A stretch of DNA of 39,881 nucleotides from Bacteroidota bacterium. Lineage in GTDB: Bacteria; Bacteroidota; Rhodothermia; Rhodothermales; JAHQVL01. A program made the position numbers and the translations under genes. Below the pieces are notes generated by a model. That model saw only the letters and a program-made list of their open reading frames with translations, ran no database searches and was not told where the DNA came from. Positions 30,489 through 37,721 of this stretch are shown here, one piece after another. How positions within the stretch are numbered: the first letter of the stretch is position 1; the number at the start of each line of letters is the position of its first letter. The DNA lies in the NCBI GenBank assembly GCA_039111535.1, contig JBCCIM010000033.1, positions 1-39,881 on the forward strand. The letters run 5' to 3'.

Positions 30489-30944
30489 ATGAGTTTTTCT
30501 TTTTCCGATGAAGAAATAGAGCGCATTGCAGCCGTCCTCGGGGTTGAACCCAAGCAGGACAATAAGCTGGTGCGTTTTGAATTATCTGATGAGGAAAGTG
30601 GACGTAAGATTTCGCTGGAAATCCTGACCGAGCTTGAAATGCCCGAGCAGCTTGCAGAAGGGCAGCCCAATAACCTCGTCTCTGTCATTACCCCAAATTC
30701 TTTCCTGCAATTGCAGGGATGTACAGGGTTTATTTCCAGCCAGGAATTGGGAGAAATCATTTTTGTTGCCCGGCATTCCGGCCGAACAAGTGGCCTGGTT
30801 GTAGAACGTGAAGCGTTCTCCTCACTCTACGCCCATGTTGACGAGCGCCTGTTGTCTACCGACTTCGAAAAGCTCCCCCCTGAAATGATTATGAGTAGCG
30901 TTGCCCTCTCCATGACAGAGACGCTGTTCCAGGATCTAAAGTAG
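30489..30944 (+). CDS. Hypothetical protein coupled to ybeY
   Basis: 151 residues, acidic, cytoplasmic (no signal or membrane segment). It begins SFSDEEIERIAAVLGVEP and has alternating strand-helix character with a central SVITPNSFLQLQGCTGFISS and a C-terminal helical PPEMIMSSVALSMTETLFQDL. I recognise no family. Its TAG stop shares its last base with the GTG start of ybeY (TAGTG at 30942-30946), which implies translational coupling and suggests a role tied to ribosome or RNA maturation, though that is only inference from location. Confidence 0.7.
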   Translation: MSFSFSDEEIERIAAVLGVEPKQDNKLVRFELSDEESGRKISLEILTELEMPEQLAEGQPNNLVSVITPNSFLQLQGCTGFISSQELGEIIFVARHSGRTSGLVVEREAFSSLYAHVDERLLSTDFEKLPPEMIMSSVALSMTETLFQDLK

Positions 30945-31980: not shown

Positions 31981-32949
31981 TTAGCCTTTTGCCAGTGTAG
32001 TCCCCTTCAGCTTGCTCACAACCCGTTTCACAGTATCCGCCTTCTGCAAAATATAGAAGTGCACACAAGGCAAATCTGCGTTTAACAACTCCTCAGCCTG
32101 CCGTAGCGCCCATTCCACGCCAATATCTACCACGTGCTTTGGGTCAGCCTCTTCAACCTCTGCAGCCAACGCCTCAGGAATCTCAAGAAAAAACCGTTTC
32201 GGCAACATTTGTAACTGCCGCTTACTCGTCATGATCTTGAGCCCCGGGATAATGGGCACTGTGATCCCTACCTCCCGGCAACGCTCCACAAAACTGAAGT
32301 AGTGATCGTTATTGAAAAACATCTGGGTGACCACATATTCTGCCCCAGCATCTACTTTTCGTTTCAGGTTTAGGATATCCCAGGTAAGGTTGGGCGCCTC
32401 AAAATGCTTCTCAGGATAGCCGGCAACGCCTACACAAAAATTGGTTGGCATACCGTCAATGATGTCTTCCAGGAAATGCCCCTGATTCATATCATCTACC
32501 TGAGCCACCAAATCGCCAGCGTAGTGATTAATCGATCGGCTTTTATCCACCCGCTTCTCCACTTGCATTTCATCCCCACGCAACGCCATAATATTCTGGA
32601 TCCCCAGATAATTCAATTCGATAAGCGCATCTTCCGTCTCTTCTCGAGTAAATCCATGACAAAGCAGGTGCGGGACGGGCTCAATATTAAACCGGTGTTT
32701 GATGGCTGCACAAAGCCCAAGGGTGCCCGGACGCTTCCTTTTGACATGTTTTTTCCATGTACCACCACCCATTTCTTCGTAATAAACCTGCGCAGAATGA
32801 CTGGTAACGTCAATAAAAGGCGGCTCAAACTCAACCAGATCCGATACAATTTTCATAATCTGATTGGCTGAGCTCCCCCGCTTGGGTGGGACAATTTCGT
32901 AAGAAATGAGTGGTTCGGTTGCCCGATCAAGTAGTTCTACAATTTTCAT
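31981..32949 (-). CDS. metF: Methylenetetrahydrofolate reductase MetF
   Basis: FAD enzyme that reduces 5,10-methylene-THF to 5-methyl-THF, the methyl donor for methionine synthase. 322 residues from the ATG at 32949 (MKIVELLDRATEPLISYEIV); the frame opens 7 codons upstream but without similarity. YEIVPPKRG carries the catalytic Glu, IDVTSHSAQ, NIMALRGD and the VTQMFFNNDHYFSFV motif are conserved in MetF. Basic insertion KKHVKRKRPGT is within normal family variation. Divergent from a nucleosidase-like gene, suggesting shared control of the methyl cycle. Confidence 0.94.
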   Translation of the reverse strand: MKIVELLDRATEPLISYEIVPPKRGSSANQIMKIVSDLVEFEPPFIDVTSHSAQVYYEEMGGGTWKKHVKRKRPGTLGLCAAIKHRFNIEPVPHLLCHGFTREETEDALIELNYLGIQNIMALRGDEMQVEKRVDKSRSINHYAGDLVAQVDDMNQGHFLEDIIDGMPTNFCVGVAGYPEKHFEAPNLTWDILNLKRKVDAGAEYVVTQMFFNNDHYFSFVERCREVGITVPIIPGLKIMTSKRQLQMLPKRFFLEIPEALAAEVEEADPKHVVDIGVEWALRQAEELLNADLPCVHFYILQKADTVKRVVSKLKGTTLAKG

Positions 32950-33145
32950 TCGGCTCACGTCAAAACACAAAAGACCACTGAAAAAAATTAAGCAGTTCTC
33001 GTATTAAGCGATTTAATTTTGTGTAACCTATCTTGCACCTCCTTACCTGCAGGACATTCCTTTAAAAAGTGTCTTACAGGAAACAGGACAAGACCGAAGG
33101 TCCCCTCGTTTATTTGATGTAACTCCAGCTAGATTTCTGTGTTCG
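32950..33145. promoter_or_regulatory. Divergent region between metF and the nucleosidase-like gene
   Basis: 196 bases holding both promoters. A short GACC-GAA-GGTC hairpin lies at about 33091-33101. I looked for SAM-I or SAM-II riboswitch features ahead of metF and saw none that hold up. Confidence 0.3.
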
Positions 33146-33757
33146 ATGATCGCATTTCTTTTTTCTACAGAACAGGAAGCCCGTCCTTTTCTAAAAAAAT
33201 ACGAAAGGGGCCGTTTTGACGGACTGCCTGAAGGTGAAATAGTCAGTGATGACCATATCCTGGTGACCATCATCGGCGTTGGAAAAATCAAGGCAGCGCT
33301 TCGGACGGAACGCCTCCTGCGCTCGGAGAAGAAAATCAAGCGCATCGTTCACCCTGGTACCTGTACGTCACTCAGCGATGAATTAAAATTGGGCACCCTC
33401 GTTGGTGCTTCTCAGGTATTTGAAGGTGACCGTATCGAACTATCAGCGCCTACGTACCCAAGAATGCCGCTCGAAATACCTTTCACGATGGAAAAGGGTA
33501 CGCTGGTTACGCAGGACCATACCCCGCAAGAAGAAACTGAACAGTCTTACTGGCAACGGATTGCAGACATGAGCGACATGACGGGCTATGCCGTTGCGTA
33601 CGTCGCGGCAACCTATGGCAAACCCTGCAATATCGTTAAAGTCGTAACCGGCTACATGTACAAAGAAGACGCCCAGTTACAACAGACGCTGGAAAATGCC
33701 CACGATGCACTTGCTGCCTTCCTCGTCAAAGAAATCCCTGCCCTGCTAGAAAAATAG
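33146..33757 (+). CDS. MTA/SAH nucleosidase-like protein with altered active site
   Basis: 203 residues, nucleoside phosphorylase fold by pattern: MIAFLFSTEQEARPFL matches the start of MTA/SAH nucleosidase, followed by VTIIGVGKIKAALRTERLL, HPGTCTSLSDELKLGTLV and GASQVFEGDRIE. The two most diagnostic positions are changed: the substrate-binding DMEGA motif reads DMTGY (Glu to Thr146) and the catalytic Asp of the RAISD motif appears to be Gly169 in KVVTGYM. It may therefore have a different substrate, a different catalytic residue or a binding role. The location beside metF suits the methyl cycle. ATG 33146, no Shine-Dalgarno. Confidence 0.6.
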   Translation: MIAFLFSTEQEARPFLKKYERGRFDGLPEGEIVSDDHILVTIIGVGKIKAALRTERLLRSEKKIKRIVHPGTCTSLSDELKLGTLVGASQVFEGDRIELSAPTYPRMPLEIPFTMEKGTLVTQDHTPQEETEQSYWQRIADMSDMTGYAVAYVAATYGKPCNIVKVVTGYMYKEDAQLQQTLENAHDALAAFLVKEIPALLEK

Positions 33758-33768
33758 TGCGTATCTGC

Positions 33769-33936
33769 CTGGGTCGTGTAGACAATTAGCAGGGAAAAGA
33801 GCATGCGATGACATTTTTGTTCAGATCAAAGCGCTTTTCGTGTTCGATGCAGCGCATCGGGCGCGAAAAGGAACGCAGATATGGACAAAAAAGGGCACGT
33901 TATGCATTTTACAAGCTGATTGTCTACACGACCTAG
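33769..33936. repeat. 168-bp foldback (MITE-like) element
   Basis: Outer arms 33769-33790 and 33915-33936 pair over 22 positions (20 Watson-Crick, 2 G.U; core GGTCGTGTAGACAAT). A second hairpin, 33834-33850 with 33854-33870 (17 pairs, 3 of them G.U, 3-base loop), sits in the middle. The right arm abuts and includes the stop codon of the DUF420 gene. There is no coding capacity, and no clear target-site duplication. It could be a small non-autonomous mobile element or a large two-level terminator for the convergent genes. Confidence 0.7.
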
Positions 33937-37410: not shown

Positions 37411-37721
37411 TAGTTACGGCGGTCGTGTAAATCTTCGAACCAGGACAACGGGAGTCCTTCAGAATCGCCGTGGGCGTAAAAGTAGGAAGCGTCAGCGTGC
37501 TGTACAAACTGATGGCGCTGGTCCTCGCGGATTTCTCTGACGCCAACAGGAATGGTAATCCCTTTTTCTGTGGCTTCGCGGCGAAAGATGGTAGGATCGA
37601 GATCAAGGTCTGCAGTCTCCTCCGGGAAGAAAAGCCTGTACGCAGTAATCACCACCCACGTCAACATAAAGAAGAGGATAGGTACGGCAACAATCGTAAA
37701 TAAGGTAAAGAAAGTCAGCAT
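37410..37721 (-). CDS. Small membrane protein in the oxidase region
   Basis: 103 residues. One N-terminal membrane segment (about 2-28, LTFFTLFTIVAVPILFFML), then a soluble tail rich in charged residues with EETADLDLD and REIREDQRHQFVQHADASYFYAH. I recognise no family. Its position between the oxidase subunits and the CusF-like gene invites the idea of a small accessory subunit or assembly factor, comparable in size to CcoQ-like or CtaO-like proteins, but there is no sequence support for that. Confidence 0.62.
   Translation of the reverse strand: MLTFFTLFTIVAVPILFFMLTWVVITAYRLFFPEETADLDLDPTIFRREATEKGITIPVGVREIREDQRHQFVQHADASYFYAHGDSEGLPLSWFEDLHDRRN

Follow-up and report, generated by a model that had tools for sequence, protein, structure and literature searches.

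The closest described counterparts of the protein reported here are nucleosidases of the PNP/MTAN superfamily, whose members are usually given a nucleoside-cleaving role on the strength of their fold. In MTA/SAH nucleosidase (MTAN), a Glu holds the ribose hydroxyls, an Asp protonates the base and a Phe stacks on the adenine; in the E. coli enzyme, we take Glu174 to be the ribose-binding residue, Asp197 the catalytic residue and Glu12 the water-activating Glu. The futalosine hydrolase MqnB (TIGR03664) and the Klebsiella AMP nucleosidase Amn belong to the same superfamily; for Amn, M404, E405 and D428 are listed as core residues that should stabilise the base and the sugar (PMC9584410). Amn E405 and D428 presumably correspond to the two residues lost in the family described below. 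No description of this family was found in the portions of the literature that our searches covered.

The DNA analysed (the window) was a stretch of 39,881 nucleotides from a Bacteroidota bacterium (GenBank assembly GCA_039111535.1, contig JBCCIM010000033.1). An ORF of 203 aa with an ATG start was present on the plus strand at 33146–33757, as initially annotated, and the aligned ATG start was common to all 46 distinct family proteins first collected, the window's included. PF01048 (PNP/UDP phosphorylase superfamily) was the only Pfam model over its cut-off on the 203-aa protein (1.1e-13, 51.5 bits against a cut-off of 25.1) and matched 44/44 family members at E 0.01, one of which carried a weak PF05526 match (0.0066) alongside it. 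Searches of PHROGs and PADLOC for a phage or defence family returned zero matches at 0.1. An AlphaFold2 model of the window protein (44 family members in the alignment; pLDDT 92.3, pTM 0.90) was placed on MTANs by Foldseek and VIA-align 2, the best being 5cce, an H. pylori MTAN (Z 24.5, rmsd 2.6, 199 residues), and 50 of the 50 structure entries listed were nucleosidases of the PNP/MTAN superfamily. The model thus has the MTAN fold, although a common fold by itself shows no function.

The window protein resembles MTAN (TIGR01704, PRK05584) in its fold over the whole chain, in a GxGK stretch and, in most family members, in a counterpart of Glu12. It differs in lacking the ribose Glu and the catalytic Asp, in a shorter middle region and in scores far below the cut-offs (15.2 bits against 73.8 for TIGR01704; 37.5 against 169 for a second curated MTAN model). 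All ten NCBIfam models listed for it scored below their own cut-offs, including TIGR03664 (41.6 bits against 124.7) and TIGR03468, the HpnG hopanoid-associated phosphorylase (35.6 against 187.1). The best score was obtained with NF004168 (PRK05634), a short nucleosidase model of similar length (185 positions), at 46.7 bits against a cut-off of 129. Three related short proteins (L076–L078) also fall below the NF004168 cut-off and, unlike the window protein, keep DME and SD.

Residues at the nucleosidase active-site positions

The initial annotation had proposed that both key active-site residues are replaced, and the alignments agreed with it. In alignments to H. pylori MTAN chains, the query letters d-m-t-g lie under e-m-e-g, so that Thr146 (codon ACG, 33581–33583), within D144-M-T146-G-Y148 (33575–33589), stands at the position of the ribose-binding Glu. 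Further along, v-t-g-y lies under i-s-n-n in 4oy3, which is titled as the D198N mutant, and under i-s-d-n in 5jpc; because 4oy3 has Asn and 5jpc has Asp at this point, Gly169 (codon GGC, 33650–33652) occupies the catalytic Asp site. MTAN-like proteins from related genomes aligned in the same register for both T146 and G169. Glu11 (33176–33178) is the counterpart of E. coli MTAN Glu12.

To the 46 distinct proteins first collected, 13 were added in a search for restored residues, giving 59. Position 146 reads T in 37 rows, S in 14, A in 3, E in 3, and I and V in one each; position 169 reads G in 46, S in 5, A in 3, and T, D and H in one each, two of the 59 rows being cut off before it. Homologues restored to both residues, named initially as counter-evidence, were not found: Glu146 and Asp169 occurred together in 0 of the 57 rows with letters at both positions, and the proposal of a new subgroup stands, with the classical residues replaced in nearly all members. 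The DMTGY motif expected of homologues is common (24/46) and is not fixed; DMSGY accounts for 9/46 and nine other forms for the remaining 13, and exceptions to the replacement occur singly, with Glu146 in one clade (L026–L028), whose members also have Gly169-Glu170, and Asp169 in the single row L154. In the tree, the placement of the Glu146 clade is unsure because the forks near the base are open, and its Glu may be either ancestral or a later reversion. Glu11 is acidic in 58/59 proteins (E 51, D 7), with Ser in L155. These natural variants (L026–L028, L154 and L155) would be useful for assays. At position 126, which aligns with the adenine-stacking Phe, no Phe occurs in any of 46 rows. Position 174, five residues after G169, is E or D in 49/57 rows; judged from sequence, such a shifted acid could possibly replace the lost Asp.

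A polar signature of the family's own is conserved in their stead. Over the 59 rows, 22 positions are invariant, among them H69, G71, E93, G94, D95, R96, P102, Y104, P105, H125, W136 (33551–33553), D144, Y148 and C161; E61 was left out of the count because no other row of the 46-row alignment has a letter in that column. Two stretches serve as family signatures, E93-G-D-R96 (33422–33433), invariant in 59/59, and Y104-P105-R106 (33455–33463), in which Y and P are found in 59/59 and R in 57/59. At the G-D-x-F stretch of MTAN the family has Q123-D124-H125 (33512–33520; Q in 58, D in 53 with E in 6, and H in 59, of 59). R106, Q123, R23, E29 and E98 were invariant in the first 46 rows and vary in one to five of the 59, which, together with the Ser at position 11 in L155, weakens the case for a fixed catalytic set. 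When a set of 33 invariant positions was compared with loops following strands, hand-chosen from the DSSP string, 19 fell in such loops against 13 expected (P 0.017), a modest enrichment that points weakly to the pocket.

Classical MTA/SAH cleavage is unlikely because the ribose-holding Glu and the base-protonating Asp are absent. Classical binding would likewise have been lost, the residues contacting ribose, adenine N7 and (by alignment) the adenine ring face having all been replaced. We somewhat favour, at a little better than an even chance, the reading of these proteins as an order-specific PNP/MTAN subfamily in which MTA/SAH hydrolysis was given up and the pocket rebuilt for another ligand. 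To call these proteins nucleosidases on the basis of their fold would probably be a mistake. That the family is still an enzyme, with H125, D144, H69, the E-G-D-R stretch and, in most members, Glu11 acting on a different small molecule, falls just short of an even prospect, and it would be more likely than a purely ligand-binding or regulatory protein, which we regard as a credible minority reading.

The metF neighbourhood and a possible sensor

The gene lies beside metF, encoding methylenetetrahydrofolate reductase, on the minus strand at 31981–32949 (PF02219, 8.8e-62; TIGR00676, 306.7 bits); as metF start we used the ATG from which the majority of homologue matches extend, codon 8 of an ORF that runs to 32970. 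The divergent arrangement described initially was thus borne out, and of the shared promoter region the divergent gap is real (32950–33145, 196 bases), the promoter itself being putative. No riboswitch was found, Rfam giving zero matches at gathering score in the window, this gap included. Among 46 distinct intergenic regions, 18 (the window's not among them) carry AAGAAACGAA some 15 bases ahead of metF, and 24, the window's included, have GTTC[AG] immediately preceding the ATG of the gene; no other long shared words were seen. Between the gene and DUF420, a 168-bp element (33769–33936) has terminal inverted repeats of 30 nt that match imperfectly (83 percent). The same genome has near full-length copies of 72–84 percent identity on contigs C192, C32, C75 and C255, as well as partial copies; it is likely a miniature inverted-repeat element.

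A metF match was present in 56/56 loci first collected (in L021 only the metF start, at the contig end), and metF was divergent beside the gene in 46/46 distinct first loci and in 20/20 loci fetched later, which added 13 new proteins, for 59/59 distinct loci in all. Linkage to metF therefore held in every case, but large parts of the block are static where the gene is missing, too. The block runs from the cox cluster through the gene and metF to ybeY. Beyond metF, 24/27 loci retain ybeY together with a small gene; in the window this small ORF (30489–30941) has no Pfam match. On the other side, a cytochrome oxidase cluster convergent to the gene (COX3, COX4_pro, COX15-CtaA and cytochrome c by Pfam in the window) has homologous ORFs in 16–18 of 28 loci, some loci ending too early, and a small ORF without a Pfam match at the cluster end (37413–37721) resembles, by eye, a cluster found in 17/28 loci. 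No operon partner was identified: a same-strand downstream neighbour family occurs in at most 6/28 loci and resembles the antisense of a cox ORF.

In three gene-less loci (L103, L109 and L123), metF has cox-type ORFs immediately upstream, COX3 being confirmed by Pfam for L103 and the cox identity read by eye in the other two. Across gene-less metF loci, ybeY was found within 1.5 kb of metF in 8/14, the exceptions being L123 and five family f15 loci with a different type of metF; the gene-less genome G054 still has ybeY near metF. The metF genes of these f15 loci (L108, L111, L114, L115 and L118) are 26–28 percent identical to that of the window and share contigs with split metH pieces, in genomes that lack the gene described here. 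Of the 31 gene-less relatives, 30 still have a TIGR00676 match. Since large parts of the block are static whether or not the gene is present, adjacency to metF says little about a functional tie. Gene and metF distances are correlated (r 0.83, 41 rows, 0/999 permutations as high), as expected from common descent.

The best-surviving rival to a rebuilt pocket is a non-catalytic MTAN-fold protein that senses a metabolite, either nucleoside-like or from the methyl cycle, and influences MetF directly or through metF expression. It would account for the absence of the classical residues in nearly all members, for the loss of Glu11 in one and for the divergent metF at every distinct locus, and we consider it a tentative but serious possibility. 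The constant position has a simpler cause in the conserved block, some relatives, G040 and G054 among them, have metF but not the gene, and no DNA-binding or output domain over cut-off was found by Pfam in the 203 aa, all of which count against a sensor. Returning to the favoured reading of pocket re-use, a more specific form of it, in which a new MTAN-fold activity on a substrate other than a classical purine or pyrimidine riboside, effected through H69, E-G-D-R, Y-P, H125, W136, D144 and Y148, would work alongside MetF in the one-carbon or methionine metabolism of Rhodothermales, is unlikely. Any link with methyl metabolism is conjecture based on gene position, and the methyl-cycle role suggested by the initial annotation gained no support beyond that position, given the cox/ybeY block, the near-universal SahH described below and the retention of metF in gene-less relatives.

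Methyl-cycle and futalosine genes in related genomes

Sixty related genomes were surveyed, 29 of which carry the gene. SahH was present in 58/60, the two misses (G021 and G055) being 83 and 87 percent complete. MTAN, by TIGR01704, was over cut-off in 5/60; four of these (G014, G024, G033 and G047) also hold the gene, only G054 among the 31 gene-less relatives has MTAN over cut-off, and 30/60 have neither. The genome of the window (G000) gave no TIGR01704 match, its other PF01048 proteins being two purine nucleoside phosphorylases and one uridine-phosphorylase-like protein below the cut-off of its model.

These counts bear on a second rival, that of an active MTA/SAH/5'-deoxyadenosine nucleosidase with a rearranged site, filling the gap left by a missing MTAN. 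In its favour are the lack of a TIGR01704 match in the window's genome, where the remaining PF01048 proteins are of phosphorylase types, and the acidic residue kept at position 11 in nearly every member. It is quite improbable: the ribose Glu and base Asp are absent, SAH is covered by SahH in almost every relative, and the gene and MTAN show no complementarity, being found together in four genomes and both missing from half. With TIGR01704 as the only model used, the distribution does not support replacement of MTAN by the gene.

A futalosine hydrolase was ruled out, because MqnC, which belongs to the pathway of MqnB, was over cut-off in 0/60 relatives and not found in the genome of the window; weak MqnC matches were seen in seven relatives, all without the gene. 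A link to MetH was likewise rejected, since the four genomes holding both the gene and MTAN gave only weak partial metH matches, none over cut-off. As far as these models show, the presence of the gene does not follow the absence of an SAH, MTA or futalosine step.

Distribution and purifying selection

The gene was found in 27 loci of a GTDB contig collection, a search that reaches close relatives only; the titles of these loci read Rhodothermales, Rhodothermia, Rhodothermaceae, Bacteroidetes or Bacteroidota bacterium, or plain bacterium. A survey of the phylum gave matches in 22/394 genomes at 1e-8, and a survey of the class gave 59/244 at 1e-20, spanning nine families. All matches in the 60 relatives and in the phylum and class surveys fell in the order of the window or nearer, and the family was separated from five MTAN-like outgroup rows at 99/97 support. 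The best reading of these results is a subfamily specific to one order, probably Rhodothermales, as proteins of several genomes of that order are identical to ones on contigs titled Rhodothermales or Rhodothermia.

Among 46 pairs of more than 80 percent identity, 10 were usable (dS between 0 and 2) and gave dN/dS values of 0.017–0.134, showing that the family is under strong purifying selection. Maintained by strong selection in nine families of the order although the ribose Glu and base Asp are lost, the family offers a defined and testable case of pocket re-use. A decaying, functionless paralogue carried along by a stable chromosomal block, which could explain the absence of the gene from G040 and G054 when other members of family f13 hold it (and when G054 keeps ybeY near metF), is refuted as a general account by these dN/dS values and the 22 invariant positions, and is given almost no weight. 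Frames were full-length save for three (L014, L048 and L053), each cut by a contig end, and the single stops flagged in G020 and G002 are located where the profile overruns the genes' own ends.
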